Source of the DNA: Trametes villosa
Taxonomy: Eukaryota; Basidiomycota; Agaricomycetes; Polyporales; Polyporaceae
NCBI GenBank assembly: GCA_002964805.2
Contig: PUDQ02000018.1
Span: 186,001 to 250,000, forward strand
Direction of reading: 5' to 3'
Length of the DNA: 64,000 bases
Position 1 is the stretch's first letter. Each line of letters begins with the position of its first letter. Below, piece by piece: positions 25,588-44,237 of the stretch. The notes under the pieces are model-generated. The model saw only the letters and a list, made by a program, of their open reading frames with translations. It ran no database searches and was not told the origin of the DNA. A program made the position numbers and the translations under genes.

Positions 25588-26405
25588 GGCAGCGTAGATT
25601 CACCGTAGACGTGGTTAGGGCGAAGCTGAGGAGAAAAGGTCCGCTTGAGTTCGGGCAGAGGTGTGAACAACATGACCTTTATCACTCGGCCTCAATGCCA
25701 ACGGGCCTTCTATTTCCGCCAGGAACATCGATGAAGCAGAAGCGGACGCATGGGATCTGTAGGACATATACCATGTGGGTGACAACCCTAGCTCGCGTAA
25801 GAGCGTGAGTGTTCGAACTTCGATGACGCTCATTCGAAGACGTACATGGGACCGCAGCTCGCCGGCACACGAAACGAGCTCCCAGAAATGCGGGATATGG
25901 GCTTCCCTAGTGGTTCCGCACTTCATAGCAGGATGAAGAGTTCCCCAGTGCTAGTAACACCACGGAGGTGTGCATCCTGCTGTCAGTCGATACACGAAGA
26001 GAAGAACTAGTGCATGCCATCGATATCGATAATCATGGCGAACCAGCATGACCTCTGTGTGTGGACATGGAAAGCGAGACGATGCCTCGGTTCCGATTCC
26101 ACTTAGAATCGGCTTTCTTATGAGAGTTTCAGCCTGCACGTGACTTATGCTGCCCGCTTGTTCTTGTGTTGCATTGTTTGTACCGCTTTGTCCGTCTCGT
26201 CTCGCCAGCGCTCACCTCTCCAAGCCCTCATCCACGATTTTCTTCCTGCGCTGCTTGCCGTTCGATACCCTTCAGCCGCGCCTCTGTTCGTCGTGACCCA
26301 CGTACGTCTTCCGTTTTGTTGAACGTCAGAAAAATCACTCACCGCTGCTCAGTCTGTTGTCCGATTGAGCACAGGAATTGTCCCGCGCAGTCGCCGACGT
26401 GGCCG
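25588..26405. other. Spacer between P450 copy A and the Helitron gene
   Basis: About 0.8 kb. The first 50 bp resemble the promoter of P450 copy B. The remainder should contain the 5' end of the Helitron, but a 5'-TC terminus cannot be fixed from one copy. The RepHel frame is open back to 26166 with no ATG before 26406, and a short unrelated frame starts at 26140. No other gene is supported. Confidence 0.45.
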
Positions 26406-29400
26406 ATGTCGCCAGTTCCCCGCACGGCCGCCCCCCTTTCTCGTGCGTCCTCACTTCCACTCTCTCCCACACCCAGTCTGACTTTCATTTTAGGGGGCCG
26501 TTTATGTATATCTCGTGGTGAATTCAGTTCCCTCCCCGTGGTGGCGGGCGTCATCCCGCCGTATGACTTCGTCGCTCACTTCGAACGTTCCGTCCCCCTC
26601 GTCGAGGCTACCGCGGCCTGCCCACCAGGCTCTGTAGCAGTCACCGTACCCCTCTCCGCGTTGGTAGACTGCGTACCAACTCGCTTGCTCGCAGTTGCCA
26701 TCCGTTCTCACGGGGTGCAGCTCAGTCATAAGAATCGGTCGGGCGCGGCTTTTCGCTCACTGGTTACAAGCCACGTATGCACGTCTGTCTGTCAGGATCA
26801 CGTTAGTATCTTCGTGCTCAGCCCTTCTTCGAATAGCGCCTCGCGTCCGAATGTACTACATCTCACCAATTCCACCGCGAGCCCGCCGGCTCCCTCCGTC
26901 GAGCGCGATGACCCCGCACCGCCGTCGGCGTGTCGTTCATTCCCGCCCACCCCGCCCACCGTCGCTCGGCAAGCACAGCTGCTTAGGGACTGGTGTGATG
27001 CTACGTCCCATCAGCAGGTTTCTGAGCGCCCTTGCGCAGTCTGCGCTCGTCTCACGTCACTCCCCAAACTGAGTGAGCATGCCGAGCACGACCTTCCGCT
27101 CCACTGCCTCGAACGAGCAGGAGAGCTTGTCACCCGTGTAACACGCACTCAGGCAACTGATGAGATTGAGGAGCTACCCGGTCCCGTCTTATATCCTGGC
27201 GGCATACGTGAAGTCGAGGGCAGGCGTATGCTGTCCGTATGCCAGGAGTGCTTGTCGCCTCTCCGAGTCCGTCGCCTCCCCCGCTTCGCCCTCGCCAATG
27301 GGCGCTGGATAGGCGATTGTCCTCCTGAATTGCAAGGGCTTCGTTACGTTGAGCAGTTACTCATTGCCCGCAATCGTCATAGTTTTTGTGTAGCTCAAGT
27401 AACTCGCGGTAAACAGAGGTACATGACAGCAAATGCCATTATTTTCGGCCAGCCAGTAGCCCGCATGTACACGATGCTGCCGCCCCCGCGGCAAGATATT
27501 GAAGAGTGTCTCGCGATCTTATTCGTCGGCACAGCGAAACCCACTGACGAAGACGTCGGCCGTACCCCTTTTATTGTCCGCCACAAGGTCGTCCTTAGAG
27601 CGTTACAGTGGCTACAACTAAATCATCCGGATTACTATAACATTGATATATCTCTGACGAACCTGCGCGAGTATCCTGAGGACGCGCCTCCAGTCGGCAT
27701 TGTTTTCAGAGAGCGTAACACAGTTACAGGGGAGAATATGGCGGTGTATCAGTCGGAAGATGATAGCGCCGTTAGCGACGGGCAGTGCTCGTTCACTGTG
27801 CATGGGCTCTGCGGGAACCAGTTCGCAGATATGACTTACGAGCAGAAGGTCCGTTGCGCGGTGCGGCACTTCGATAGCGGCGGTAAATCGATGTACTACG
27901 GCCATGAGCGTAAACCTCAGTCCATCTATCACAACCCTACCCTGTTTCCCTCCATGTTTCCTTGGCTGTTCCCCTACGGCCTCGGAGGGTTCGAAAACGA
28001 GAACATTTCCACGCGTCTTCATCGTGGTGATCATATTCGCGCGCTCTTGATGTACCCCGACAGGCGATTTGAGCGTGATCGCTGTTTTGCCTTTATAGCG
28101 TTCAATCATGAGCAAATACGAGGGAGCGCGTCGGGCGCGTACCTACTTACCAAGAGGAGCCACTTCGACAGTGTCGCGGACAAACTGATGAATATCGACC
28201 GGGCAGCTCTGGACAATATCATCCAGCGGGGAGCGAATGGCGACTACGTACGGCCCGAGACTGAGGCCGAGAAAGCGTGCTTTGATCTCATATCCGCCGT
28301 GGATTACGTCGGCGGGCATGTCTCCGGTCTGAACACGGCGCGTAAGTATCAACGCAACGAGATCCGGTCACTGATGATAGCGAAGGGCGTACCTCTGTTT
28401 TTCGTGACCTTCGCTCCAGCAGACCTCAAAAGTCCGCTGTGTCTGAGTTACTGCGGAGAGGATATCGATCTGCTTCAGTATATGCCCCGTCTGCGCGGCG
28501 CAGATGATCGTCGGCGGGCCATTGCAGATCACCCCGCCGGAGCCGCTCGATTCTTTCATTTTCTGGTCACAACCTTCATTCGGGTCATCCCGAAACATGG
28601 CACGGGCGAAGAAGGAGTATTTGGCCCGACCGAGGCATACTACGGAACAGTAGAGGCTCAGGGGAGACTTACTTTGCATCTGCATATGCTTGTATGGATC
28701 AGCGGCAGCCCAAGTCCTCAGGAGATCCGTGATCGACTATTAGCGGATCCCGAGTTCGAGGGCCAGTTATTGACATGGCTCGAGGCGTGTCATGTAGGCG
28801 ATTTTGCCACAGGCGACGAGCAGGGGTTAAGTGACCTGCTAGAAGACGAATATTTCGAGCGCCGCGACGACGGTACGACCGTTCGGCGTACCAGACTGAA
28901 GAGCGGCGTCCGAGATCCTGCAACCATGCTAACACCCCGTCCACCTCCCGCCGACGCAGGAGACGACGCCCTTGCCAAATGGTATCGTAGCCATCTAGAG
29001 GACTCCGATCGCGTTGTGCTCTGCATGAATCGGCATGACCGCGAGCATACCTTAGGATGCTGGAAGGGCTACTGTCGAGCGCGCTTTCCGCGGGAGACTT
29101 TCGAAGAGACCCAAGTCGATCGTGCAAGCGGCGCCATCCGATTTGCGAAGAAAGAGGAATGGATCAACACCGTAAATCGGCTGGTATCTAGCGCAGTGCG
29201 ATGTAACACCGACGTCGGTTGTCTGTTGACAGGCACGCAGATCAAGGCTATATTAGCATACATCACAGACTATATCACAAAAACCGCGCTGACTACCCAC
29301 GGGTTCTTTGAGACTGTTCGCTCAGTCCTAGATCGGAACGCGGACATCTTGAACTGCGAGGCGAGCGGTCGGGGGGAGGCTGCGCGATCTCTCATTGTCA

Positions 29401-32400
29401 AGATAGTGAACGCGCTGTCTGGTGCCGCCGAACTTGGAGGGCCTGCAGTATGTTCTTATTTGTTAGGCAATCCTGACCATTACACCAGTGAGCAGTACAA
29501 AGTGTTTTACTGGCGCTCGTATGTCCGTAGAGTAATCGAGGACTCACCACCCGAACGTCCATCTGTGCACAATCCCGCAGAACCCCACGTCGACCGGGTT
29601 GTTTTGGGCTTGTCCGAAGGAGACGTCGTTCCACTCTCGAAGATCAATGACTACATTTACAGGCCTGAGGCCTACTCGACGCGAACGTTGTACGACTTTT
29701 TGTCCAGCACAGATGTGAAGAAAGTGGGGAAAAAAGAACGGTTTGCCGAGCAAGCGAACGAGTGCCTTTCAGGCGAGCGGAGCGAGGACGATTCCTCCGA
29801 CAGTGACACCGACCAGGATGACAGCGTCGCGGAACCGACCAAACACAGCAGAGGCCAGCCATGTCAGCCGCGTGCACATCGGTTTCGCGCGGGTCACCCC
29901 CAGCGTTCCACTCACGGCGTATATAGCCATAAGCCAAGCTATGTGCTCAACTTCGTCGGGGGAGCTCTCCCTCGGCCGGACAGGGGCGACCGGGACGAGT
30001 ATTGTAGTGTCATGCTTACATTGTTTCATCCAGGAGGTTGGCGATCAGGTCGAGACCTCCGTGCCGCCGGTGAGACCTGGAGTGCCGCTTTTGCACGTAC
30101 TCAATTCGCACCGGAGCATATCCAGATCATGAAAAACATGAACTTACTATATGAGTGTCTGGACGCGCGGGACGATTACTCGGCGCAACGTAGGGAAGCT
30201 GCCAAGGAAAGAGATTGCCCGGTTCCTCTGGGCATGTCTGTGGGTGTGCACGATCATATTGCTGAGGAGCACGACGATCCGTTCTTCGAGCATACCGAAG
30301 AGTCGATGATGGATGCCGTAGACCAGTCCGCTGTAGGGCCGCGCACCGCAAAAAACCAGGCAGAGATGGAGAAAATGAGAAACCTGTTGTTGCCCATAGT
30401 GTCCATCAAGGAGAATTCGCAGCCAGTGAGTGCTCGTGAGTTGAATCTCGCGCGGCAGCCGGCAGCCGAGTGGAAGAAAGTCGTAGCAGAGGCGAAGCAG
30501 GCTGTCTTGGACAAAGCAAATGGGATAGACGCAGAGTCAGCCCATAGCACAAACCACAGAGCGCAGCCGTCCTCGATGTCCTATGGTCCTGACAAGGGCG
30601 TGGTCGCGATAGTGAGTAAAGATGACCTCCGCGGCGTGGTAGGCGCTGACGGTGTCCCACGCCCGTTGCAGGACGCGGCTACGCTCCTGTTGCACTCTAC
30701 GATACAAGCGTTCACACTGAACGAAGAGCAAACTCGAGCGTTTTCTATCGCGGCTCGTCACCTGCAACACCACGACTCGCAACAGCTGTTGATGCATCTC
30801 AGTGGGATGGCCGGCACGGGCAAGTCGCGCGTCATCCACGCGATCATGTCGTTCCTAGACGAACGCGGTGAGTCTTACCGGTTCATCGTTCTCGGCCCTA
30901 CAGGTAGTAGTGCCGCTCTAGTGGGAGGCTCTACCTATCATTCGGTGTTGGGATTTTCTATCGCGAACGAGTCCGGGAGCTCGTTTGGAACTGCTCTGGA
31001 CAAAGTCCGCGGGCGCCTTATACGTGTCGATCTTATATTCATCGACGAGATATCAATGATCTCGTGCACCGACTTTCTCCTAATTCATGAGAAGCTATTG
31101 AAAGCTTTCCCGGACGCCTTGCTACCATTCGGCGGTAAGAGTGTTATAGTGGCAGGAGATTTCGCCCAGCTTCCGCCGGCAGGTCGATCACCTGCACTGT
31201 ACAGCCACACAGTGAGCTCGTACAGCTCTGGAATGAGCCAGTTTCGTCAAAAGTGCGCCCTGGGGAAAGCCCTATGGCACCAATTTACTACCGTGGTTAT
31301 TCTTCGCGAGAATATGCAGCAGCGTGGCATGTCAGAAAGGGATTTGCGGTTCAAACGCGCGCTGGAGAACTTGCGCTTGTGCAGCTGCACCGCAGATGAC
31401 ATCGAGTTGTTTCGTTCTCGTGTATGCCGCCCCGGAATCGCTGACGAACTTCTCCGTCAGGAGCGCTTCCAAGGCGTATCGATCATCACTGCGCGCAACG
31501 CACATCGCGACGCGATAAACTCCGTACGCTGCGACGAGTTTGCTCGCGTGCGTGGGGAAACGCTCACGCACTTCGTTTCCTTAGACACCTGGAGCAAAAC
31601 TAAGGATCCCTCCTCTGTGCGCCGCGCCCAGCATGAGTATCGCGAAACCGTCGATCCAGTAAGGACCACCAATACAATTGGACGCGCTTTACAAGACGTT
31701 CTATGGGGACTGCCGCCAAACATGACGGACCATCATCCCGGCACGCTGAGACTTTGCAAGGGGATGCCAGTCCTGCTGAAGTACAACGAAGCGACGGAAC
31801 TCTGCGCCACCAACGGAGCGGAGGCCATCGTTGTGGACTGGCACGCGCACGGGATACCCGGTAATCGGCAAGTCCTGGACGTCCTGTTCGTTGAGCTCGT
31901 AAATCCTCCCAGATCAGTTCAATTACAAGGCCTGCCGCCAAACGTCATACCTTTGACCCGCATGCGCAAGTCTATCCGCTGCACACTACCTGTGGAAGAT
32001 ATGCAAGTCTCGGTGAGTCGAGAACAAGTCGCAGTGCTTCCGAATTTTGCCATGACGGATTATGCCAGCCAGGGCCGAACGCGGTCGCTGAACGTTGTGC
32101 ACATCAAGCATTGCAAAAACCATCAAGCGGTATATACATGCCTTTCGCGAAGCTCTAGTTATGACGACACCGTGATATTGGACAACTTCGATGCAGCCAA
32201 ACTGCGTGGCGGCGCAGCCTCCGCGCTGAAACAAGAGTTCCGAGAGCTGGAACTTTTGGACGAGATCACGCGTCTCCGCATCGCCGGCACTCTGCCGGTA
32301 CATATCCAGGGTGTTACGCGCGGGGCTCTGCTGTCCACGTTCCGCGCGTGGAAAGGTAAACGTTATGTGCCTAGTGCGGTACATCCCGCGCTTGATTGGA

Positions 32401-33509
32401 GTGAGGCATCTGATGAGGACCTAGCGCCTTGTCCAGATCTCGGCGCCGCCCTGCCGCATCTCTATCCATCCAGTCGCGCCACCCCCCCCGCGAAGAACCA
32501 CGTCAGTACGCAAGTTCCCATCGATTCTACAATGTCAGCGCCGCGCTTGAAACGGGCGCGTCCTGTCGAGCAATGGGATGCACGGCCGAAGAAACGACGC
32601 GTCAAGGATCAAACCGCGTACGACATCGACTCTGGCCCGTCAGCTTCACCCGCAACCGTGTCAGTTGCTTCTTTGCGCGGGCTTGTTTGGGACGCTCAAA
32701 ACTGGAGCTGCGCGTACGATTCGATTCTCACTGTTTTACTTAATCTCTATACTGAACGAGGTGCGGACTGGCTAGCGACAGTTGCGCCCGGGAACACGTA
32801 CATGGACATCATCCGCGGTCAAATCACGGACAACCTGGCAGACCCAGGCGTCGCGGAGGCGGTACGAGATGTCCTAAGAGACGTGCTCGCCACAATCTAC
32901 CCAGCACGTTTCCCGAGGTATGGGCACACTATGGCTGCCGTTTCTGACATCATGTCCTGCCTTTTCTATACACCCAACGCGTTCGCGCGTAGCGCATCGA
33001 GGTGCGCGACCTGTACTCTTGAAAGTGTACACGTGGTTGACCACGGTCGGTCTTACCTTTGGTTCCTGACAGCCGCAGCGTATCGTTCTCACTTCCCCAT
33101 GCAAAGCAGTGTCTCTCCGAGTGAGTACGTGGACTGCTTATTGACGCGTGCAGTACAGGTGCATTGTCCTGCTTGCAGGAATTTGAATCCTGTGGTATCC
33201 ACACTACTTGTCGCGCCGCCTCTGCTCGTCATCGAGACATCTCCGTCGGTCCCCGTCCGTTGCGAACCCACGCTCAACGCGAGGATCGATCACGTCGAAC
33301 ACTCGTGGGCACTAGTAGGTGTCATTTATCACGGTTTCAATCACTTCACGTCGCGTTACGTCTCTTCAGACGGCAATACCTGGTATCACGACGGCGACGT
33401 CACGAAGCAAGCTTGTGTACGCGATCAAAACATTGTCGGCAACGCGGCAGCGGCCTCAATGGCAAGAGGCAGGACAGCAACTCATTACATCTACGCGTTG
33501 ACAAGCTGA
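26166..33509 (+). mobile_element. Helitron (rolling-circle transposon), ends unresolved
   Basis: Defined by the intact RepHel gene. Helitrons begin 5'-TC, end CTRR-3' preceded by a short hairpin, and insert between A and T without target duplication, so single-copy boundaries are hard to fix. I found no unambiguous hairpin plus CTRR within about 1 kb downstream. The interval given is only the open coding frame; the true element extends beyond it on both sides and may include the minus-strand coding fragment at 33588-34113. Confidence 0.7.
26406..33509 (+). CDS. Helitron Rep-helicase with C-terminal ubiquitin-hydrolase-like domain
   Basis: One uninterrupted frame gives 2,367 aa from the first ATG; the frame is open to 26166 but only with non-ATG starts. 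Domains in order: a Cys-containing N-terminal region (about 205-315; CAVCARL, VCQECLSPL); the Helitron-like Rep domain (about 570-1000) with HUH motif LTLHLHMLVWI (His758, His760) and a two-tyrosine motif AYITDYITKT (Tyr952, Tyr956); and a PIF1-type SF1 helicase (about 1440-1930) with Walker A GMAGTGKS (Lys1473), Walker B FIDEISM (Asp1547, Glu1548), GDFAQLPP and TDYASQGRT. After a basic linker comes an extra domain (about 2085-2367) with a Cys box NWSCAYDS (Cys2102), two CxxC pairs (2200/2203, 2254/2257) and a His box NHFTSRYV (His2313), the plan of USP/C19 deubiquitinases. Known role: the Rep nicks and transfers single strands during rolling-circle transposition. All catalytic residues are intact, so autonomy is possible. 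Confidence 0.9.
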   Translation: MSPVPRTAAPLSRASSLPLSPTPSLTFILGGRLCISRGEFSSLPVVAGVIPPYDFVAHFERSVPLVEATAACPPGSVAVTVPLSALVDCVPTRLLAVAIRSHGVQLSHKNRSGAAFRSLVTSHVCTSVCQDHVSIFVLSPSSNSASRPNVLHLTNSTASPPAPSVERDDPAPPSACRSFPPTPPTVARQAQLLRDWCDATSHQQVSERPCAVCARLTSLPKLSEHAEHDLPLHCLERAGELVTRVTRTQATDEIEELPGPVLYPGGIREVEGRRMLSVCQECLSPLRVRRLPRFALANGRWIGDCPPELQGLRYVEQLLIARNRHSFCVAQVTRGKQRYMTANAIIFGQPVARMYTMLPPPRQDIEECLAILFVGTAKPTDEDVGRTPFIVRHKVVLRALQWLQLNHPDYYNIDISLTNLREYPEDAPPVGIVFRERNTVTGENMAVYQSEDDSAVSDGQCSFTVHGLCGNQFADMTYEQKVRCAVRHFDSGGKSMYYGHERKPQSIYHNPTLFPSMFPWLFPYGLGGFENENISTRLHRGDHIRALLMYPDRRFERDRCFAFIAFNHEQIRGSASGAYLLTKRSHFDSVADKLMNIDRAALDNIIQRGANGDYVRPETEAEKACFDLISAVDYVGGHVSGLNTARKYQRNEIRSLMIAKGVPLFFVTFAPADLKSPLCLSYCGEDIDLLQYMPRLRGADDRRRAIADHPAGAARFFHFLVTTFIRVIPKHGTGEEGVFGPTEAYYGTVEAQGRLTLHLHMLVWISGSPSPQEIRDRLLADPEFEGQLLTWLEACHVGDFATGDEQGLSDLLEDEYFERRDDGTTVRRTRLKSGVRDPATMLTPRPPPADAGDDALAKWYRSHLEDSDRVVLCMNRHDREHTLGCWKGYCRARFPRETFEETQVDRASGAIRFAKKEEWINTVNRLVSSAVRCNTDVGCLLTGTQIKAILAYITDYITKTALTTHGFFETVRSVLDRNADILNCEASGRGEAARSLIVKIVNALSGAAELGGPAVCSYLLGNPDHYTSEQYKVFYWRSYVRRVIEDSPPERPSVHNPAEPHVDRVVLGLSEGDVVPLSKINDYIYRPEAYSTRTLYDFLSSTDVKKVGKKERFAEQANECLSGERSEDDSSDSDTDQDDSVAEPTKHSRGQPCQPRAHRFRAGHPQRSTHGVYSHKPSYVLNFVGGALPRPDRGDRDEYCSVMLTLFHPGGWRSGRDLRAAGETWSAAFARTQFAPEHIQIMKNMNLLYECLDARDDYSAQRREAAKERDCPVPLGMSVGVHDHIAEEHDDPFFEHTEESMMDAVDQSAVGPRTAKNQAEMEKMRNLLLPIVSIKENSQPVSARELNLARQPAAEWKKVVAEAKQAVLDKANGIDAESAHSTNHRAQPSSMSYGPDKGVVAIVSKDDLRGVVGADGVPRPLQDAATLLLHSTIQAFTLNEEQTRAFSIAARHLQHHDSQQLLMHLSGMAGTGKSRVIHAIMSFLDERGESYRFIVLGPTGSSAALVGGSTYHSVLGFSIANESGSSFGTALDKVRGRLIRVDLIFIDEISMISCTDFLLIHEKLLKAFPDALLPFGGKSVIVAGDFAQLPPAGRSPALYSHTVSSYSSGMSQFRQKCALGKALWHQFTTVVILRENMQQRGMSERDLRFKRALENLRLCSCTADDIELFRSRVCRPGIADELLRQERFQGVSIITARNAHRDAINSVRCDEFARVRGETLTHFVSLDTWSKTKDPSSVRRAQHEYRETVDPVRTTNTIGRALQDVLWGLPPNMTDHHPGTLRLCKGMPVLLKYNEATELCATNGAEAIVVDWHAHGIPGNRQVLDVLFVELVNPPRSVQLQGLPPNVIPLTRMRKSIRCTLPVEDMQVSVSREQVAVLPNFAMTDYASQGRTRSLNVVHIKHCKNHQAVYTCLSRSSSYDDTVILDNFDAAKLRGGAASALKQEFRELELLDEITRLRIAGTLPVHIQGVTRGALLSTFRAWKGKRYVPSAVHPALDWSEASDEDLAPCPDLGAALPHLYPSSRATPPAKNHVSTQVPIDSTMSAPRLKRARPVEQWDARPKKRRVKDQTAYDIDSGPSASPATVSVASLRGLVWDAQNWSCAYDSILTVLLNLYTERGADWLATVAPGNTYMDIIRGQITDNLADPGVAEAVRDVLRDVLATIYPARFPRYGHTMAAVSDIMSCLFYTPNAFARSASRCATCTLESVHVVDHGRSYLWFLTAAAYRSHFPMQSSVSPSEYVDCLLTRAVQVHCPACRNLNPVVSTLLVAPPLLVIETSPSVPVRCEPTLNARIDHVEHSWALVGVIYHGFNHFTSRYVSSDGNTWYHDGDVTKQACVRDQNIVGNAAAASMARGRTATHYIYALTS

Positions 33510-33587
33510 GGCAGCAAGAATCCCTCGTCTCGCAACACTCTACTCGACAGCCGTGAGTAAGCAACCCTTCTATCAGCAGGAAGATCC

Positions 33588-34113
33588 TCACCGCAACGCA
33601 ATTCGACGAGCCAGTACATCGTCGCGGCCACGCATGTTGACTAACCCATCGCCTCTCACCGCCCCGCGGAAGACGAGCAGCTCTCCAGCCCACAGCCGTC
33701 TGCCGTTCTCGTCGAACCGGTGCTGCCTCTCCACGAAGTATACCAGATAGCGGTAATAGACCCTGCTGACCTGCCGGTTTCTCGCGTAGACTCGGCGGAT
33801 CTGCAAGCCTCGCGTAGACCCGAAGACTGTATCCACCAGGGGAACGTCGACGTTGCCCGCGCAAGGGTAGCAATGAGCGTTACATTGGATAAACCTGCCA
33901 GGGTGTTCCTCGGGTATGTGGAAACCGCGTATACTGATTGGCTATAGCCTGGCTGAGAACTTGTTCGCGACTGTAGGGCGCCGCACGTACCGTGAAGGAC
34001 ATCTCCGTCCTGTTCGCGGTTTTCGCTCGTTGGGATCCCCTTACCAGGCGGCAGTGTAGCGATGGTGTCCACGACGTCGACGACGGCAGGTAAACCCGCT
34101 CGACGAGGCGCAC
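33588..34113 (-). CDS. Partial unknown gene downstream of the Helitron
   Basis: Two minus-strand exons are convincing: 34113(or earlier)-33991 ending RTEMSFT, and 33941-33588 after a 49-nt GT-AG intron, reading PISIRGFHIPEEHPG, then CNAHCYPCAG, RNRQVSRVYYRYLVYFVE and RRLWAGELLVFRG to a stop. Codon phase is kept across the junction. A CxxxC pair (CNAHCYPC) could bind metal. I cannot find the 5' end; upstream frames switch. It may be the 3' part of a real gene or a host fragment carried by the Helitron. No family recognised. Confidence 0.4.
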
Positions 34114-34800
34114 AGCTACGCCAAATCATGGCCCAGACTCGAGAGCACGCCATGGTCACTGCGATTTTCTGGGGCGGGCCACACCCTCGTTTCTCCGAAG
34201 CCACGTCCCCTGCGGATCGCGCCGGCGATTGGCTAGCCATCACGACGGTACGCGAACCTTCTGCGGCCTTCGCGGCGGCGTAGATTTACCATCGTTGACA
34301 CATTCGTTGGCTCGCCAGGTCCCGAGCTTCAAGTGCGAGCATCGCTACCAGTTGTTCGTCCGGTGTCTGCGCGTATCGCCAGACATTGTCGCGCTGAGTC
34401 CAATCAGCACCTGCCCCTCCCCCCCTCCCCCCCGAATGCTTTCATGCATTTCCACGGCGGTCATGGGAGGTGGGTTCACGGTCCAGGAAGACGACGAGGG
34501 CGTGGTGCATTGTAACCGCGTCCGGGCATAATCCACGGCCTACGCGTCAATGTAGAAGCGCGTGCCTCGCGGTCTCGCGCGCGTGATTGCTCTTGCACAA
34601 TAACGCGACACCGACCGAAAGCGGGAGATGCAGGGGACAGGAAATTCCCCTCCTGCACGCACGCGTTTCATCCGGCCACAATTTCCGGGGCCAGCCGTCT
34701 TCTGTATGGGAATAATGCGAAGTCGCGTGCTCTATGCACAATCACGTCGGCCGCGCGATGGTGAGTGATTCGTGTGGTCCTAGCCTGCGCTCTTCCCCTC

Positions 34801-34807
34801 ATATATA
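34801..34807 (+). promoter_or_regulatory. TATA box of the first nucleotidyltransferase-fold gene
   Basis: The sequence tcatatatacc lies about 80 bp upstream of the ATG at 34885, a spacing also seen for other genes of this cluster. It supports the ATG at 34885 over the upstream in-frame codon at 34765, which lies before the TATA box. Confidence 0.5.
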
Positions 34808-34884
34808 CCTCCTTGCCCAGGAAACCCCTTCACCTCCCCCAGTCGTCCCCTCGTCGATCGCCCAAGAACACCTACTTCCCTGTC

Positions 34885-35898
34885 ATGTACAGTCTTCTCA
34901 CCCAAAGCCGCTCGCGATTCCCCGCGGCCGAGCACCACGACATCTTCACCTCCCTTGTCGACGACATGATCCTGACTTTACTCGATCACGCCGAAGTGGA
35001 CACCCTTATTCGGCTGCGCTCTACCGGGCACATCGCCGACGCCTTCGTTTCCGGGTACTTCACGCGGAAGCTCACCACCCACCTCTCCCGTTTCGTCAAA
35101 AACACCGACCACTTCCTTCACGAGCTGGAGATCTGCTCCGCGGTCATATCCGGCTCGACCGCCTTGGCCATCCTTCTCCGTCTGTCCTGGAAGCCGGAGG
35201 ACCTCGACGTTTACGCCCCCAAGGACCTCTTCTTCCACGTCGTCGGGTATCTGATGCACGTCGAGGGGTACAGCGTGGCGTTCGTTCCGCGGTACAGTTA
35301 CCACGTCACCGGCAACATCCGCGCTGTCGCCCGCCTCACCAGGTCCGATGGTCAACGTGTCGACGTCATCCAGAGCACCTCCAACTCCCCTCTCCTGCCC
35401 CTCGCCGCCTTCTGGAACACCGCGGTCATGAACTACATCACTCCTTCTTCCTTCTGCATTGCGTACCCCCACCTCACGGACGCTCACCGCGGCTTGATCT
35501 CCACGGCCGACATGCACCCCATGTACCACCAGGGTGTTCCCCTCCCGACCCAGCCCATGCAACTCGTCGAGAAGTACCGCGCTCGTGGTTTCGACCTTCG
35601 GCTCTCGCACGTCTCCTGGGCCAGGGAGTTAGACGTCAACGCCGCCTGCGCGGGCGTCGACTCCGCCTGCTGCCCGCTGACTATCCGTTACTTCGGCGAT
35701 CGCTACTGCGTCACCGGCTCGCTCAACCCGGTCCGCCAACCTTCGTCGTTCCGCGTCAGGATCAACCTGGTAACCGAGCTCACGGCTGCGTGGTGGAGGG
35801 GTGGCCAGACGTGCGGGGGGGAATGCGCTGCAGAGGGTGGATGGGTTCTGGGTGACTCCTTCTCTTGCCGCCGTTCGATGTTCGACGAAACCGTGTAG
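34885..35898 (+). CDS. Nucleotidyltransferase-fold protein, F-box-like N-terminus (paralog 1)
   Basis: Intronless, 337 aa. Residues about 18-85 form Leu-rich helices (DDMILTLLDHAEVDTLIRLR) reminiscent of an F-box. Then comes a polymerase-beta-like nucleotidyltransferase signature: VISGSTALAILL with Gly90-Ser91, followed by EDLDVYAP with Asp106 and Asp108, and RVDVIQS with Asp160 as the third acid. This is the GS-x(n)-DxD...D layout of active enzymes that transfer nucleotides. A shared distal block, FCIAYPHLTDAHRGLI, matches paralog 2. Related frames are common in mushroom genomes, but I know no established function; activity as an RNA or protein nucleotidyltransferase is inference. The last 40 residues (after about 300) are low in conservation. 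Confidence 0.65.
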   Translation: MYSLLTQSRSRFPAAEHHDIFTSLVDDMILTLLDHAEVDTLIRLRSTGHIADAFVSGYFTRKLTTHLSRFVKNTDHFLHELEICSAVISGSTALAILLRLSWKPEDLDVYAPKDLFFHVVGYLMHVEGYSVAFVPRYSYHVTGNIRAVARLTRSDGQRVDVIQSTSNSPLLPLAAFWNTAVMNYITPSSFCIAYPHLTDAHRGLISTADMHPMYHQGVPLPTQPMQLVEKYRARGFDLRLSHVSWARELDVNAACAGVDSACCPLTIRYFGDRYCVTGSLNPVRQPSSFRVRINLVTELTAAWWRGGQTCGGECAAEGGWVLGDSFSCRRSMFDETV

Positions 35899-36092
35899 TC
35901 CCAAGTGTCGTCTTACTCGCAAATGAATGTCGCAATCCCTTTGTCTTATGCCCGCTCCGCCTGTCCAGTCCCGTTGCCTCGCGTACAACACTTAGAGGGG
36001 ATCGCGTCCGAGTCGCGCAAAGAGCCGCCCGTGCCGACAGAAGTTTTCGGCTTGTACGCAAATGCGCGGGAGGCCTTCTCTCTCTTACCATC

Positions 36093-36366
36093 ATGAGTCC
36101 CGCGAAACCAACACACCCAGTTGTAAGTCTTCACCACGACATCTACTCTCGTCACCGTCTTCACTCTTTGCTAGACGCCGCCTGGTCCGCCCTCAGTCCT
36201 CTGGCCGCCGCAGCGCCCGCCTTCCGTCCTCTGGTGGGACGGACCTCAAGGACGAACTCGTCGTCTCGTCACGCCAGGCCATGACCACGTCTGCAACAGC
36301 CTGTACACCCGCATCAGCAAAGAAGGCGCGGGACGCATGTTACAGCCAAGCAAAGCCAAGCTATGA
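36093..36366 (+). CDS. Possible small two-exon gene (73 aa)
   Basis: ATG at 36093, exon 1 to 36122, GT-AG intron 36123-36174, exon 2 to a stop at 36366, in phase. The product has a repeated PPSVLW unit and an Arg-rich middle (GRTRRLVTPGHDHVCNSLY). The only support is clean splice signals and phase, so it may be chance. It lies between the first nucleotidyltransferase-fold gene and the minus-strand OB-like gene. Confidence 0.2.
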
Positions 36367-36957
36367 CCGCCCGCGAGGAGAAACGCAGTCGCCACGCGAG
36401 TACTTCGCGCGTAGTTCCCTTCGCTGTTGTCACCGCGCGCTCGCAGAGAGGCGTATTGCATGTACTCGACAAGACTCACGGTAGACCGAATGAAATAATC
36501 CGAGCGGCAGACACGATGCCAGAGTGATCGACGTCGCGAGCCGCCTGCGCGATAGCAGCGGAAGCTCCATTAGGACGCAAGGCGCCGCGCACTCTCGGGC
36601 TATTCGACGCGGTGGTGAAGCGCGGGGCGACGCTGAGAGGTAGCTATAGGCCGTGATCTGACAACGAGGCTGCCACCTAACCCGCGCGGACGCGAGCGGA
36701 GGCCGAAAGGGATTCTGTGCTTACTTCAGATTTCGCGGGACTGGCTCAGCTCGTGGCGGCGATGGCGGCACATGCGGACAGACAAGGCGAGGTAGGGCAA
36801 GATGCGTGTTCAGACGGCCTCGAAATTATGCGTTACTTGTACAACTACGTCGACGGCGTGGTGTCCATGCTATCCTCTGCACCCGTGAACGTGAACCCGC
36901 TCACTATGGCGGTGGGCTTGCGCGAGTCGGCGGCCTTGGGTGCAGGACGAGGAGCCT

Positions 36958-37952
36958 TCAGGAGGCGCTGTTGGATGTGTGAGCATCGAACTCCGACTCA
37001 GGAGGATAACGGGGACTAACAATTGTTTGCGCTGAGGACGCGAGCCGCACGATCTGTTGAGGACTGAAGAATATCTCCGTCTTTCTCACCTTCCGCGCGC
37101 GCATGGTGATTACATGCACGGTGACTGCGACGTCGACGAAGTCTCCGCGGCGTATAACGAGGGGGTTGACGCGCGCGATCGAACCGTCTTCCTTCTGTAC
37201 GCCGACAGTCAAGCGATGCTCGACGCACCAGAGATGGGCGATCTTCTCCGCGCGGCCGAGTGGGTCGTCTTGCTTGGTGAGGGCGGACACCGGCTTCGGA
37301 CACGTCGGCTGAACCTGCATATGAACATCAGCCACATAGAGTCTACGGGACGATCGATACACCACGCGGACGTCTGGGGACATACCTTCGTGAACACTCT
37401 GCACCTCAGCACGATGTCTCCGTGGCCGTCTCGTCTAGTAGGTGCGGGCAGACAGAGTTGCTTGTAGATGAGCTCGGAGATGTTGGCCAAAGCGCGTTGC
37501 TGAGCGTTAAACGGGTCACGGCACGCGCCGCCGGTTAAGGACAGTGATTGAACCGCCTTCGGCGCGTGTTCAACCTCTCTGACGTGTCCACCACCGTGAG
37601 CAGCGAGCAACCTGAATGCAAGTACCACGCACCCGCTCCAATTGCCCAGCGGATTGAAGTTCACGTCTGAGACAATGCCTTGCAAGCGCAGAGTCATCTC
37701 CATCGTCTCCGCGTGGTGGTGTTCGGGATGGATGAGGACTTTCGGTGAGCTGTTCACCTGTTCCCGGTCGACATACAACCACTGACACAGTGACTCGTAG
37801 TCCACCGGGACGACCCTCCATGGTGGTAGGTCCTTCTTGCCATCGGAGTCCAGCTTAGGACAACCTAACCCGGAGGGCCATAGCTCTCGAGCAAGCTGGG
37901 TTTCCGACGCTGGAAGGACAGGAGCTTCAGACTTGCCGATACAACACCTCAA
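36958..37952 (-). CDS. OB-like tandem-domain protein, divergent member
   Basis: Minus strand: an exon from about 37952 (5' end uncertain) down to 37386, a GT-AG intron at 37385-37315, then an exon 37314-36958. The first domain contains EMTLRLQGIVSDVNFNPLG, the second IARVNPLVIRRGDFVDVAV followed by FFSPQQIVRL. Both follow the beta-strand rhythm of the pair of domains in the three tandem genes at 38607-44237 (compare the second-domain cores [18 protein letters not shown] and VGDAVLVEA). The C-terminal frame could be trimmed by a further intron after VITMRARK. No catalytic motif. The N-terminus is missing because upstream frames are ambiguous. Confidence 0.5.
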
Positions 37953-38538
37953 CGTCGCTAGAACTCGCCTGAGATGAAGGACATGGCCAGTGAGGTTGGA
38001 AGATGAAGGTTGGCTGCAGAGTACGACGAGGGCGCTGCGTCCGCCGCCCTTGAGCTTTCCTCCAGCGGATCGACGGCGACTCCTCTCCCCAGACCCACGC
38101 CATCCGGGTGAGCCTTCCGAGCGTCATTCTGACCATCGCATTTGAGTAATCCGCCGTTTCGGTCCAGCCCTCCCGCCCGTCGGAACGAAGCGCTTCTCCG
38201 CCCCCGCCGCCATACAGAGTCCCAGGCGGTTTCACAATATCTGTCGTCTACAACTGTTCGAATACTCGTCTCAAGAACATGCCACGGTATTCCGAACAGG
38301 CGTCATACGAGGCCTTTCGGAACGAGAACTTGAGTCCGCCACACCGCGTAGCGCCCTCATGCTGGGCCGATTCGCGATCGGGCTATCCATAGAAGTTTTC
38401 AACCGACTCGCGCACACCCGCCCTCGGACGCCGGGAAGCTTCGAGATCATTCGCAGATCGCCAGCATGTTGTGCGCATCGCTACATTCGACGCCTTCGTG
38501 GCGACCAGGAGCAGCGTGGCTGGTGTTCGCTGCGAGGT

Positions 38539-38545
38539 ATAAAGT
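38539..38545 (+). promoter_or_regulatory. TATA box of tandem gene A
   Basis: tataaag lies 62-68 bp upstream of the ATG at 38607, in a position comparable to those of the first nucleotidyltransferase-fold gene and tandem gene C. Confidence 0.55.
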
Positions 38546-38606
38546 CTACAGCTGCATGTCCGCTGCGCTCACCCACCCGCACTTCGCAACCGTCTTCCAC
38601 GCCGCC

Positions 38607-40674
38607 ATGTCCAACAAGAACACTCGTCCCGACGTTCCCCTCACTCGAGCTTCAAAGCGGCAGAAGTATGTGCGCTCCACCGTTTACCCGATCGCGCGCT
38701 AACTTCAGACAGGATGCAAAACGGCCTTCCCGATCCGCTTCACCAGGAGCAAGGCTCGGCGGTTGCACAAGGCGCGCCTTCGGATGCCGCAGTTCCGCTC
38801 GTGGGGCCCGCGGCTCAACCTGAGAGTGCCGCTGTTCCGGCCGCCGGCGTCGTCGATGCGCCGCTCGCAGGTACGAGGCATCCCCCTACTGTTCCGCCGC
38901 GCACAATCTTACCCTAACGCCCAGGCACTGACGGACGGCCTGAGACTCGGGCTGTGGATGATGTCGTGGGACTTCAGGCTGCCGGTACGTCTTCGCTGGC
39001 GCAATACCAGCTGCTCTGTATGCTAATGGCTGCTAGTATCTGTAGGCAATACCGCCGTGGAACTGGTCGCAGTCGAGGAGCCGCGCGGGATGGAACCTCC
39101 GCATGGTCAGTTGACTCAGTAGTCGTCGAGTGGCATTCACTGACCCGGTAATAGGGTATAACCGCTTTGGGGACCTCGGCTCTATCGAGACGGATGAGAA
39201 CGCGCATGTTCCCTCCCTCGTCCCGCTGCCCTTGGCTGTCGGACGCACTCCATTCGGAGAGCTGCCTGTACCTGGGCCCGTTAATAGTGAGGCATCCTTC
39301 TACATTCGGGAGGTCTACAGTAGCTGATCTTCTGTTCTAGCGGCGTTGAATCCGGACGTTGTGCCCTTCCACGGCACTGCGGACGTGAACCGCTCAGCCG
39401 TCACGACCGTCGGCGCTGCCCCAACCGCCGCTGGGCCCGTGCCAAACGCCGCCGTGGCCGTGCACGCCATCCCCGCGCCTGCCGTTTCCGTCGTCGCAGC
39501 CCCGACCACGGCCGGGCCCGCCGCCGTGCCCGCCGTGCCTGCCCCGCCTGCCGTGCCCGCCGTGCCTGCCCCGCCTGCCATGCCTGCCGCGCCTGCCGTC
39601 CCCGTCGCCGTGCCCGCTCCGCCCGCCATGCCTGCCGCGCCTGCCGTGCCCGTCGCCGTGCCCGCCCCGCCCGCCGCCGTGCCCGCCGCTGTGCTCGCCG
39701 CCGCCGTGCCTGCGCCGGCCGCGGTTGTTGAAGCGCAGCCGGCTCCCATAGCCCAGCCCCCCCCCGCTGGCAATGGTGTCGGGCTCATCCCCGGGCCTGA
39801 CGGTACGGTTATCATGCCGCCCCCGCCCCCGCCCGCCCCCGTCGTATACACGGGTGTCGATTACGTGCCCTCCGAGATCAGGACGTACGTGTCTCGTTCG
39901 TATATCGCTCGACGTGCCTCTGACTGATCATATCGCAGGCGCATGAGCAACATTGCCCGCTACCGGGAGGTCGGGAACAATCGCTATGCGCTCGCCGCGG
40001 TTCCACGTTCGGCGGACTGGGGCCGCACTCCGCGGACGGAGAAGATCCTGTGTCTCAACAACAAGCCTCTCTTCATCTGGGTACTGGGCCGAGTACGTAG
40101 CCTGTGGTTCTTCGACCGCACCGGCGATCCCCACCTTCGCGTAAACATCGGGGTCACGTTGCATTCCGATGCCGACCGGTGCGCCGCGAAGGACTGGTAC
40201 GGCAAGGCTCGTCCTCGACCAGGTCAGTAGCTTGCATTCCCATCCTTTCGCTCCGCTAATAACGCCGTATTAGACGACGTCCCGTCCGTTGTGTATGCCG
40301 GTCGCATCTGCGGCCAACAGGCTAAAGGCGAATACGTTCAAACGGTGCGCGCTCCTGCTCTTAGGTCTTGCAGACTGCTGATATCTCGACAGGCAACTGC
40401 ATTCAGTCAGGTGTACGACGCCACGGCACGTCTCCGGGCGAAGTCCGCGATGCCTCAATTGAGCCCCGTGGATCTCGGGAAGAACGACATCGTCGTGATC
40501 GAGTGTCAGCTCACCCGCTGGAGGCGCGCTTCGGATGGTAAAGCCAAGAAGACTTGGACGTCTTACGACGTGGGGTTTGAACTCCACAGCATTTTCCAGC
40601 TGTACTCGGCCCCTTCAGACATTGATGACCAGGAACAGACCGAGGCTGCGGAGGAGATCACAGCGGAGTTGTGA
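38607..40674 (+). CDS. OB-like tandem-domain protein A (549 aa) with Pro/Ala/Val repeat
   Basis: Nine phase-consistent exons: 38607-38665, 38713-38870, 38925-38984, 39046-39105, 39155-39286, 39341-39884, 39939-40222, 40274-40344 and 40393-40674. The N-terminal 340 residues are disordered, with a Pro-Ala-Val repeat tract (about residues 205-300). Domain 1 (about 340-435) reads [28 protein letters not shown] and [13 protein letters not shown] and ends RPRPG. Domain 2 (about 455-549) contains [26 protein letters not shown] and [12 protein letters not shown]. The alternating hydrophobic strands with a conserved Gly suggest two OB-like beta-barrels; that fold is my inference, not a match. Genes B and C have the same two domains and the same intron before domain 2. 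No enzymatic residues are obvious. A nucleic-acid-binding role would fit the fold. Confidence 0.68.
39515..39720 (+). repeat. GC-rich Pro/Ala/Val coding repeat
   Basis: Repeating gcc/gtg/cct triplets with 9- and 15-bp sub-periods (gtgcctgccccgcctgcc and variants), all in the reading frame of gene A. They encode VPAVPAPPA and MPAAPAVPV units. Absent from paralogs B and C, so it is a local expansion. Confidence 0.8.
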
Positions 40675-40830
40675 TCGAGGGTTGAATCTTAGAGCTGAAT
40701 CTCACAAATTTTTGTATCGCTCCCGAAAATATTCGATCGTTTCCTTGTGTCCAAGCGTGTCCGGCAGACGGTCGTAGGCCTTCGTCGCCTTCTCGCAGCG
40801 TAACACGCTGGTCTCCTTCTCTCCACGACC

Positions 40831-41709
40831 ATGCCAGTCCCCTTCCCGAGGGACATCGCGGCCGTCCTGGTCTCGCACATGGACTTCCCCACTCTGATGG
40901 AGTACCGCCAGGCGTCGAAAGAATCGCTCCGACTTGTACGTGAAGAGCTCACAACCTCGCTGTTCTACCTCGTCGCTCGATTCGTCCCCAACCCCGCGGC
41001 CCTCCTCGCCAAACTCGACCAACACGGGGCTTTCATCTCCGGCTCGACCGCCCTGCAGTTCTTCCTTCGCGACGTCGACGTCAAGCCTCGCGACATCGAC
41101 ATATTTCTTCCGTACGGCAGCCTTCCCCCCCTCCTACTCCACCTTCTTGCCCAGCAAGATGGCATTGTCGTAGCTCCGACCGATCCCATCATCCCCACTC
41201 TGGTGCACGTTCTCGCCGGACAGGCGGTGACCTTCCGGACGCCCTTCGGCACAGTCACGCTGTGGGAAAGCGACGCCGGGACGCCCTTCCTTCCTATCGT
41301 GCGCGGTGCCACCTCTGCACACTTCGTGTACGTCAATCCCACCTACTTCGGCTGCGCATACCCGGAACTCCTCTTCCAACACCGCGCCATCGTCGGCCGC
41401 CCCGACGAGATCGGCTTCGACCGCGCCATCGAAAACTGCAAGCAGCGCGGTATAGACGTTCGGCTGTCGACGAAGTTCTGGTCCGACCTCGCGTCTCGAG
41501 GCCGATGCGCCGCCCAGTATCACGCCTGCCCCTCGCAAGGCCGAACGTTCTCCGACCTCGGGAGCTTGAAGGGAAGGATGAGGCCGTTGGTGGACGAGGA
41601 GGTCGAGCCGGGCGTCGCGTGGAGATTAGATTATCGTCCGTGTGGTAGAGGATGCGCCCTTCCTACGCCTTTACTGCCGATCCCAAACCTCCTGCAGAAC
41701 ATCCTGTAA
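40831..41709 (+). CDS. Nucleotidyltransferase-fold protein (paralog 2), third acid missing
   Basis: Intronless, 292 aa, paralogous to the gene at 34885. The N-terminal F-box-like helices read FPRDIAAVLVSHMDFPTLME. The nucleotidyltransferase core is FISGSTALQFFL with Gly71-Ser72, then RDIDIFLP with Asp88 and Asp90. The strand carrying the third catalytic Asp in paralog 1 (RVDVIQS) aligns with GTVTLWES, so Asp is replaced by Thr; a nearby Glu/Asp might substitute. The distal block GCAYPELLFQHRAIV matches FCIAYPHLTDAHRGLI of paralog 1. If the third acid is truly absent, this copy may bind but not transfer nucleotides. It sits between OB-like genes A and B on the same strand, about 150 bp after A and 290 bp before B. 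Confidence 0.65.
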   Translation: MPVPFPRDIAAVLVSHMDFPTLMEYRQASKESLRLVREELTTSLFYLVARFVPNPAALLAKLDQHGAFISGSTALQFFLRDVDVKPRDIDIFLPYGSLPPLLLHLLAQQDGIVVAPTDPIIPTLVHVLAGQAVTFRTPFGTVTLWESDAGTPFLPIVRGATSAHFVYVNPTYFGCAYPELLFQHRAIVGRPDEIGFDRAIENCKQRGIDVRLSTKFWSDLASRGRCAAQYHACPSQGRTFSDLGSLKGRMRPLVDEEVEPGVAWRLDYRPCGRGCALPTPLLPIPNLLQNIL

Positions 41710-41996
41710 ACTACGACGCTGAACTGTTTGTGTGTCCTTATGTATGGATCTGTGCCATCAGCGCAAACAATCGATGTGCCCGCCCGCCGTCTTGGAACAC
41801 CTTTGGGCTACACCATAAGCGGTAACGCGGGCCCCATGGATCAGGCGCCCGACGAACTCGACCTGCGTCTCCCCACCACCACGATTGCGTGACCACTACG
41901 CGTCGTCAGAATGACTGCGATGTCTGTGGCTCAATTTTCGTGCACCCTTGAGCGGCGCCTCGTACCTCTCTCTCGCACTTCTATCCGACATCCGTC

Positions 41997-42928
41997 ATGT
42001 TATACTCAAGCAGCGACTCGGACGCATCTTCCACGCCTACCCTGGTCGAACAACATGGCGCTATCTCTGGGGACCGTGATACGATGTGGGACGACATAGG
42101 GCAGGACACCCCCGCTGTTGATGTGTGGGTGCCCAACGCGATATTTCAGTGAGTGCGCTTAGATTCAGCGGGGCTCGCCTACTGACCCGTCTTCGTGTGT
42201 AGTCGGCTGTACAAGATGCTTGCGTACTCCAACCCCCACGAGCTTCGCTTCAGCGTAGGAGAGATCCCAAGGGCGAGCGACTGGGGCACTGGGGCACGAG
42301 ACTCGCAGCTGGAGCTACACGGCGGAGTCGTCGAGATTCTCGTGGTGGGGCACCTGAGAAGCGTGTTGTTCATGGCTGGTGAGAGTGTTCCTCGGCCGCA
42401 TGCCCGGGTTTCCCTCGAGCTCGTGCGAGACCGCGATCGCGCCGCCGTGCAGGAGTTGATGCAGAGGGCAAACGCGACCGCCGAACACGGTACGTGTTAC
42501 CTTGAAACGGTCGTCGAGCTGCGGATGGCTGACCGACGACCGACCACTAGCGCGATCGTGGACCACACGGTGTGACTTTTGTGCCGATTCTCGCGACGGG
42601 CGAACCTCTCAGGTAGCCTCATTGCTCCGACGCAGTGCCTAAGCTGACAAGGTTGTCGCAGATATTTAAGGAAGTGTACGATGCAAGGGACGCCTTCACC
42701 GCCAAAAGCGAGATGCGTCGTCTGCTCGTAACTGACTTAAGCGTCGGGGACTTGGTCATTGTCGAGTGTCGCTTCGTCCGTATGCCGACGGATACTACGC
42801 GCGGGCGGTGGTGGACGACGTGGACCACCGCGTTCCAGTTACGAGCCATATCTTTGCTGATGCCGCGCTTGCCTTTACCACAGCAGCAGACCAGTAGCTT
42901 TCAATGTACCTTCAACGGCGTACTGTAG
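41997..42928 (+). CDS. OB-like tandem-domain protein B (255 aa)
   Basis: Exons 41997-42148, 42203-42489, 42551-42612 and 42662-42928, all in phase. A short acidic N-terminus (MLYSSSDSDASSTPT) precedes domain 1 (LRFSVGEIPRASDWG, VVEILVVGHLRSVLFMA, ARVSLELVRDRDRAA) and domain 2 (IFKEVYDARDAF, LSVGDLVIVECRFVR, TAFQLRAISLL). It lacks the long disordered head of protein A. The third exon, read in the splice-consistent frame, gives TRCDFCADSRDG, which does not resemble the matching exon of gene C; another frame of the same DNA (VTFVPILATGEPL) does. This may mark a frameshift or an unrecognised splice choice. Fold and nucleic-acid binding are inferred only. Confidence 0.6.
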
Positions 42929-43174
42929 ACATCGCATTCATCAATATTCAAGAGTCTCCGGGGAAGACGAACACGAAGACAGCGAAAAGGCTCGCGTGAA
43001 AAGGCCCGCGTCGTGGCACCTGCTACTTCGGGTTGCGCCGAGGAATGGCGGGAAAGAATGGTGCCACGGTGCGCTGTGTTGCCCATGAGCACGTTATCAT
43101 GAGCGCTGCGTGGGCGCGATCTGACCTGTGCGAGCGATCACAACATGCGCTCGTGCTCACCTCTGGATTTTCAC

Positions 43175-43180
43175 TATAAA
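43175..43180 (+). promoter_or_regulatory. TATA box of tandem gene C
   Basis: tataaa lies about 80 bp upstream of the ATG at 43259 (MPETRKRARF). The in-frame ATG at 43145 lies before this box, which favours the later start. Confidence 0.55.
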
Positions 43181-43258
43181 GGAGCGACGACGCCGACGCT
43201 CTTCCCATCTCCACCCCTCCTGCCTTCTGTCGACAGCCCCGAAGCCCCTCCGCCTAGC

Positions 43259-44237
43259 ATGCCGGAAACTCGCAAACGTGCCCGGTTCGTTCGCGACTGC
43301 TCAACGAAACGTCGTGCGGCTCTGCTCACCAAGTTCCGCCATAGCGAAGACGAAAGTCCCGAGATCGTTGAGAAGCTCCTGGGCTCTCCGGACGGCAGCG
43401 ACGCGGGCTCTGACTCTGACTCCGACTGCACGGACTCTCTCTCGAAGAATGCCATCGTGCTTCCGTGGTGGTTGAAGGACCGACAACCTGAGTACGTTCT
43501 GCGTGTCTTCTCAAAATATTATCAATGTTGAATCGAACATGACAGCCGACTCCGTACTTTCATGGAGTACCGCGACGACACCGGCATCATGGCGATCGCG
43601 AGGGTTCCGTCCACCGCGCAGTGGGGGAAGGGAGCGTTGGCCAACAAGCTCGTCGTCGACGGCCGGGCGGTACACCTCTGGGTCGTGGGCGTGCTCCAGG
43701 AAGTTTCTTACGTCGCATCTTCCGATGCCACATTCACTGGGTGCGACGTGACCGTATCTCTTTTGCGCGATACCGACCGCGACGCCCTTGCGATGCTCGG
43801 CGCCAAAGCCCATCCGCGGCCAGGTGAGTCCGGCTTACTGCTCGGTTTGCGGATAGCTAACGACTCGCGTGTAGTGCAGCGAGAGACTACGCTCTTCGCT
43901 AGCTCGGCTACCGTAGGGATGCGGAGCATCCGGGTAAGCTGACTCGGTCGACGGACGCCGAACGTCACTGATCTTTGCCCAGGTTTTCTCGGAAATCTAC
44001 GATGCGACCCGCGCGTACACCGACACCGAATCTATGATTCGCTTGTCGCCGACCGTCTTGGTGGTGGGGGACGCCGTCCTCGTTGAGGCCAACGTCGTGC
44101 GGAGGAACTTGCGTCCTCAACAGACGAGCTGGACCACCTGGAACGTCGAGTTCGACCTCATCCGTATCTCTAGACTGATTCCGCGCGTCTTGGTGAAGCA
44201 GGAGCGAGTTGGTAACGGCTTCCCGGTCACTCTATAA
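43259..44237 (+). CDS. OB-like tandem-domain protein C (274 aa)
   Basis: Exons 43259-43491, 43546-43823, 43875-43933 and 43983-44237, phase-consistent. The basic head MPETRKRARFVRD and an acidic Ser/Asp stretch (DAGSDSDSDCTDS) precede domain 1 (MAIARVPSTAQWGKG, AVHLWVVGVLQEVSYVA, CDVTVSLLRDTDRDA, HPRP) and domain 2 (VFSEIYDATRAYTD, LVVGDAVLVEANVVRR, FDLIRISRLIP). Intron positions match gene B exactly, including the small third exon, which reads TTLFASSATVGMRSIR here. Head-to-tail order with A and B indicates tandem duplication. Function unknown; the two beta-rich domains suggest ligand or single-strand nucleic-acid binding. Confidence 0.65.

Follow-up and report, generated by a model that had tools for sequence, protein, structure and literature searches.

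A predicted USP-like peptidase domain at the C-terminus of a Helitron RepHel protein from Trametes villosa

The stretch of DNA analyzed here (the window) comprises 64,000 nucleotides of the polypore Trametes villosa (assembly GCA_002964805.2, contig PUDQ02000018.1, positions 186,001 to 250,000 of the forward strand) and contains a Helitron of about 18.4 kb, whose transposition protein RepHel ends in a domain with the predicted fold of ubiquitin-specific proteases (USPs). A single continuous frame of 2,461 codons from stop to stop (26124-33509, + strand) holds this C-terminal domain together with the Pfam families DUF6570, Helitron_like_N, and PIF1. The Rep domain and the PIF1-type helicase are therefore fused in one frame, as in Helitrons, while no endonuclease family appears among the ten Pfam matches to the frame (E up to 5), so that the apurinic/apyrimidinic (AP) endonuclease of Helentrons is missing from them. 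A previous reading made from the letters alone (the sequence-only reading) had noticed that the PIF1 frame runs on for about 280 residues, and this continuity is seen here as well; these residues match no Pfam or NCBIfam family. The features of the frame are:

26406..33509, + strand: RepHel-USP coding frame, counted from the ATG that the sequence-only reading used as putative start
27270..27665, + strand: DUF6570 (Pfam, E 6.4e-38)
28041..28694, + strand: Helitron_like_N (Rep) domain (Pfam PF14214, E 7.2e-26, over cut-off)
30717..31211, + strand: PIF1 helicase, Pfam-matched part only (PF05970, E 4.9e-17, over cut-off)
32583..32606, + strand: basic RPKKRRVK of the linker that precedes the USP domain, presumably a candidate nuclear localization signal (10/11 copies scanned have a basic stretch)
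32661..33506, + strand: predicted USP-fold peptidase domain (AlphaFold2 predicted local distance difference test, pLDDT, 94.8; predicted template modeling score, pTM, 0.91; Foldseek and VIA matches)

Behind the helicase, at about 32271-32283 (approximate position), the frame also encodes KLRGG, whose K-x-x-GG pattern resembles the C-terminus of ubiquitin and SUMO.

In the AlphaFold2 model, the domain consists of a papain-like core and a finger domain, with the putative catalytic Cys opening the first long helix (Cys at model position 24, helix 24-47), the His and the Asp in a C-terminal box, and two CxxC zinc pairs. The position of the Cys agrees with that in six USPs whose mutated Cys is named in the title of the structure entry (USP2 C276S, USP14 C114S, USP30 C77A, USP35 C450S, Ubp8 C146A, and CYLD C596S/C596A), in which it falls at model positions 22-26 when counted ungapped from the starts of the alignment ranges. 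Many USPs, but not all, hold two CxxC zinc pairs in their fingers. The sequence-only reading had proposed the USP order (Cys, zinc fingers, His, Asp) and a structure prediction as its check; the analysis supports this reading, as the model gives a USP fold rather than one foreign to papain-like peptidases, and the same order is found in it and in 44 homologues. Ubiquitin proteases make up the majority of the structure matches listed, as they do in the PDB itself, and share 12-18% identity with the domain in those alignments. The structure matches listed include no OTU, VTD, or C48 fold, an absence that does not exclude them. A search with a 45-row profile placed USP9X best (E 1.9e-4), whereas an earlier 24-row profile had returned PAN2 (E 0.071), RPA12 (E 0.079), and USP15 (E 0.083). 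Searches with the single sequence gave a dual-specificity phosphatase as the sole PDB match (E 0.22) and a weak Pfam match to the InsA zinc ribbon, both discarded as uninformative.

Conservation was counted in 44 homologues drawn from 62 proteins found, leaving out P0005 (which is without the His half), two full-length RepHels, five rows with a long helicase extension, and ten short or weak matches. It was also counted in the own copies of the genome, that is, in 29 of the 30 genomic matches to the domain, with fragments counted and the window copy excluded:

32709..32711, + strand: putative catalytic Cys2102 (44/44 homologues, 26/27 own copies), which starts the first long helix
33003..33014, + strand: first zinc pair, Cys2200 and Cys2203 (43/44 and 29/44 homologues; 22/22 and 22/22 own copies)
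33165..33176, + strand: second zinc pair, Cys2254 and Cys2257 (43/44 and 44/44 homologues; 20/22 and 21/22 own copies)
33342..33344, + strand: putative catalytic His2313 (44/44 homologues, 21/21 own copies)
33390..33392, + strand: putative third residue of the triad, Asp2329, which comes first of the two Asp in WYHDGD (44/44 homologues, 20/21 own copies)

Counted from the ATG at 26406, the residue numbers of the sequence-only reading (2102, 2200, 2203, 2254, 2257, and 2313) correspond exactly to nucleotides 32709, 33003, 33012, 33165, 33174, and 33342. Its Cys, its His, and its four zinc cysteines are those conserved above, and the loss of Cys and His in related proteins, which it had named as counter-evidence, is seen in none of the 44. 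From its WYHDGD box, the first Asp is invariant, as is the Trp that precedes it (44/44), while the second Asp is found in 0/44. The mean column identity of the homologues to the window domain is 0.24, and its four other cysteines are kept in at most 18/42. Judged from these alignments, the conservation of the Cys, His, and Asp and of the zinc cysteines exceeds chance.

The genome searched (46.7 Mb in 140 contigs, to which the C-numbers below refer) holds 49 Helitron_like_N matches and 30 matches to the USP domain, some of which are parts of a single copy. Open frames of 2,332-2,541 codons surround ten long domain matches (at least 264 of 302 residues); the adjoining Rep matches report equal frame lengths. 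When a distant homologue served as the query, this genome yielded no other group of intact RepHels with the domain. On a tree of 44 of the 49 Rep domains, which has modest deep support, a long-branch warning, and no fixed root, the label "no USP" requires 2 changes (shuffled mean 15.1), "USP" 5 (13.2), and "fragment" 3 (5.7); taken jointly, the three labels require 5 changes against 18.1 in shuffled trees, a value as low in 0/200. The sole "no USP" row within the USP part of the tree, C39, is without a helicase match and is probably a truncated RepHel. One fusion, or one old loss, would fit this tree better than many captures, although the tree does not prove it. Two copies are divided. In the C4 element, the USP domain is split between two frames (C4:78914-79818; L014, L027), so this copy looks broken there. 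In the RepHel at C56:6624-25261, the domain starts at 11190 and its remainder lies at 24632, probably because of a later insertion.

The USP domain is under purifying selection and is co-inherited with Rep. In the ten pairwise comparisons that the window and four kin elements allow, the proportion of nonsynonymous differences (pN) over 281 ungapped codons of the domain is 0.28-0.33 and that of synonymous differences (pS) is 0.72-0.85, compared with pN 0.38-0.50 and pS 0.60-0.84 in the linker before it, and with pN of 0.11-0.18 in Rep and 0.16-0.20 in the helicase. Most ratios cannot be computed because synonymous change is saturated, unlike the replacement sites of the domain; the closest pair, C4 and C10, gives a dN/dS of about 0.05 over 231 codons, with a pS (0.73) that is itself near saturation. 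Across 11 elements, the distances of the USP domain follow those of Rep (Mantel r 0.94, with 0/5,000 permutations as high). The domain evolves faster than Rep, with 56% identity to the nearest kin against 82%.

The limits of the element were set by similarity to its kin and are listed here with the extra genes that follow RepHel:

26092..44480, + strand: whole Helitron of about 18.4 kb, TCCGATTC...CCCCTAG between a flanking T on either side (limits of kin similarity; exact end bases inferred)
26091..26112, + strand: 5' terminal hairpin TTCCGATTCCACNNNGAATCGG with a 7-bp stem (matched exactly at 17 genomic sites, its reversed pattern at 0)
33588..34002, - strand: convergent small gene just behind RepHel (predicted first exon 34002-33991, then a predicted intron of 49 nt, main exon 33941-33591, and stop codon 33590-33588)
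34885..35898, + strand: cargo gene with an SGSTAL...DLDV motif (42 genomic matches; no Pfam match over cut-off)
36961..38123, - strand: cargo gene, probably spliced (C1 and C10 hold counterparts that keep the gene order; no Pfam match, E up to 1)
39928..40671, + strand: triplicated cargo family, copy 1 (counterparts in two kin elements)
40804..41709, + strand: second SGSTAL cargo gene, diverged to 30% identity with the first (C1 and C10 hold counterparts)
42186..42925, + strand: triplicated cargo family, copy 2 (counterparts in two kin elements)
43532..44234, + strand: triplicated cargo family, copy 3 (one piece with a sub-cut-off Pfam match to GIDE, E 0.0043, 17 bits vs 23.6)
44436..44480, + strand: 3' end with GTGGAATCGG, a short stem, and CTAG (similarity to the C1 kin ends here, at GTGGAATCGG...CCCCTAG followed by T)

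Similarity to four kin elements starts at the 7-bp hairpin TTCCGATTCCAC-NNN-GAATCGG, which folds better than 200/200 shuffles, whereas the 3' stem is no stronger than shuffled sequence (169/200 fold as well). With TCC at its 5' end, CTAG at its 3' end, and a T flanking each, the element shows the 5' TC, 3' CTRR, and subterminal hairpin of Helitrons; in addition, GTGGAATCGG is the inverted repeat of its 5' end. The 18-base 3' motif (up to 2 mismatches) occurs at 31 genomic places, some of them by chance, since its reversed control occurs at 11. For 13 of the 17 copies of the 5' end, this motif follows within 25 kb downstream on the strand of the copy, where 0.14 such pairs would be expected; for the C67 kin it was not found within that distance. 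Five of these pairs, including that of the window, are 17.7-20.0 kb apart, and the other eight, separated by 0.3-7.2 kb, look like non-autonomous derivatives. Upstream of the element, the stretch 24900-25860 is a duplicated neighboring gene, 70% identical to C18:239538-240483 (other strand, inside the window) and to C89.

None of the extra genes has a Pfam match over cut-off, GIDE being the best (E 0.0043). The convergent small gene, with a predicted first exon of 12 nt and a main exon of 117 codons, has no Pfam match at E up to 5 and six genomic matches, each adjoining one of the six closest USP-RepHels; its pN is 0.11-0.33 against a pS of 0.61-0.78 (15 pairs), and in C17 and C4 the frame stays open through the predicted intron too. 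Six close matches of the SGSTAL family likewise adjoin the six closest USP-RepHels, and many of the 42 lie near RepHels with and without the USP domain. We take its SGSTAL...D[LI]D motif to be nucleotidyltransferase-like; the structure prediction of the first SGSTAL gene, with two sequences as input, reached a pLDDT of only 38.4. The three-gene cargo family is interrupted by the second SGSTAL gene, and the order of the cargo genes matches in the two kin elements read that far (C1 and C10).

The analysis shows the fusion, the predicted fold, the invariance of the putative catalytic residues, the purifying selection, and the co-inheritance with Rep, and we infer catalysis, the modifier, and the target. 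We consider it reasonably probable (roughly 0.6) that the RepHel C-terminus is a USP-type isopeptidase with an intact Cys-His-Asp set, which was fused long ago, probably once, has been kept since, and most probably acts in cis to take off ubiquitin or a ubiquitin-like modifier. The predicted fold and the invariant triad point to an active isopeptidase, whereas the fusion to a replication protein and the VTD precedent discussed below suggest an action in cis that would keep RepHel, or its partners at the nick, unmarked. According to this model, an ancient and probably single fusion would have taken place in a Helitron lineage of mushroom-forming fungi, and the domain kept since then would free either the transposition protein or other proteins working at the nick or the fork from the modifier, by which the transposase may stay stable and active against degradation by the host.

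Several observations weigh against this interpretation. The window domain matches neither Pfam UCH (PF00443) nor UCH_1 (PF13423) at E up to 5, and among 45 family members UCH is weakly matched in 4 (best E 0.058) and UCH_1 in 1 (6.4e-4). In a comparison with a single host USP, alignment of the Cys half was confined to 12 columns at a zinc site (probability 2.3), and that of the His half was weak (38 columns, probability 11, E 0.0027). The zinc residue Cys2203 is often replaced, being kept in just 29/44 homologues. Moreover, 14 other Rep matches lie in frames of at least 2,000 codons with no domain match, which indicates that Helitrons do not in general need the USP domain; in six of them whose 3' ends were read, the frame stops 303-366 codons into the stretch read, in or just behind the helicase, without the domain. 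The domain family is USP-like and of USP fold, outside present sequence models. Finally, the SUMO protease USPL1 ties with the USPs in structure (tied Z), so that the modifier may be either ubiquitin or SUMO. A USPL1-like enzyme that takes off SUMO rather than ubiquitin, acting on RepHel or on silencing and repair proteins of the host, is a possible but distinctly less probable alternative, given that USP9X scores better by profile and that ubiquitin proteases, dominant as they are in the PDB, account for most structure matches listed.

The remaining alternatives are far less probable. The domain could cut RepHel after the GG that closely follows the helicase and thereby separate helicase and tail, as the presence of a K-x-x-GG site (LRGG, LTGG, and similar) in 13/14 own USP copies and in 0/6 of the USP-less RepHels read would suggest; this improbable self-processing was set aside because the GG is kept in 5/10 homologues with a readable site (an eleventh row starts after it), and the site falls within a conserved part of the helicase family. 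About as improbable is an inactive adaptor that would only bind ubiquitin or a partner, like the pseudo-USP of PAN2, which led the matches to the early, shallow profile (E 0.071): PAN2 is devoid of the catalytic triad, while Cys, His, and Asp are each present in 44/44 homologues. Least probable of all is a piece of a host gene captured passively and with no role. Gene pieces are indeed captured by Helitrons, according to the accessible part of PMC6431247, but the selection pattern largely contradicts this explanation, as ten open-frame fusions keep the domain at 22-57% identity with synonymous sites saturated, and the 28 host UCH matches of the genome do not overlap the 30 domain matches.

With respect to known peptidases, the domain shares with the USPs (C19; USP30, CYLD, USP54, and USP9X) its predicted fold, the order Cys-zinc fingers-His-Asp, and the CxxC pairs, and differs from them in its low identity (the 12-18% given above), its Cys box SCAYD, and its location within a transposon protein. 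It shares with USPL1 (C98) the predicted fold, the tied Z, and the His box NHF; USPL1 is a host gene, not transposon-borne, and may or may not be the closest kin of the domain. Among basidiomycete elements, the HELPO Helitrons of Pleurotus also hold extra genes downstream of RepHel, although they differ in their RepHel of about 1,400 residues and their size of up to 13.7 kb, and no cysteine protease is reported in the accessible sections of that study (Castanera et al. 2014, PMC4289320). The element of about 18 kb also exceeds the 6-14 kb given for fungal Helitrons in the available part of a 2019 review (PMC6431247).

Helitrons with a deubiquitinase-class domain are already known, and we could not find the USP class described on them. 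The sequence-only reading had regarded OTU-type peptidases as established on some Helitrons and a USP/C19 fusion in a fungal Helitron as not well described; both statements agree with the open-access literature searched (subscription journals and Repbase notes lying outside its scope), which yielded OTU and VTD cases and no USP case (PMC6431247 and PMC9741609, in the portions available). OTU-like peptidases are reported in these portions on animal and certain fungal Helentrons; like the domain described here, they are deubiquitinase-class cysteine peptidases on a transposon protein, with the difference of an OTU fold instead of a USP fold and of an AP endonuclease that is often present (PMC6431247, PMC9741609). 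The same excerpts of PMC9741609 present the activity of transposon OTUs as untested and describe assayed VTD deubiquitinases on Helitrons. Among the latter, zebrafish DrT1 and DrT2 resemble the present case in having a cysteine deubiquitinase domain with conserved catalytic residues in the Helitron frame, and the protection of transposition proteins is proposed for them as it is here, although their VTDs belong to another peptidase class, similar to herpesvirus tegument proteins (PMC9741609, in part). An independent gain of a USP on Helitrons, after OTU and VTD, maintained by purifying selection throughout a deep clade of large elements with several genes, from mushroom-forming fungi, as a working ubiquitin or SUMO isopeptidase needed for transposition, seems to us evenly balanced, and the compact, well-predicted domain makes its role directly testable by a single Cys change. 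If true, modifier removal would be a repeatedly invented requirement of rolling-circle transposons, and a third peptidase class, long conserved in Helitrons of fungi, would make evasion of the ubiquitin or SUMO marks of the host look like a need that recurs in these elements; herpesvirus groups, as the available text of PMC9741609 states, also differ in which of the OTU and VTD classes they use.
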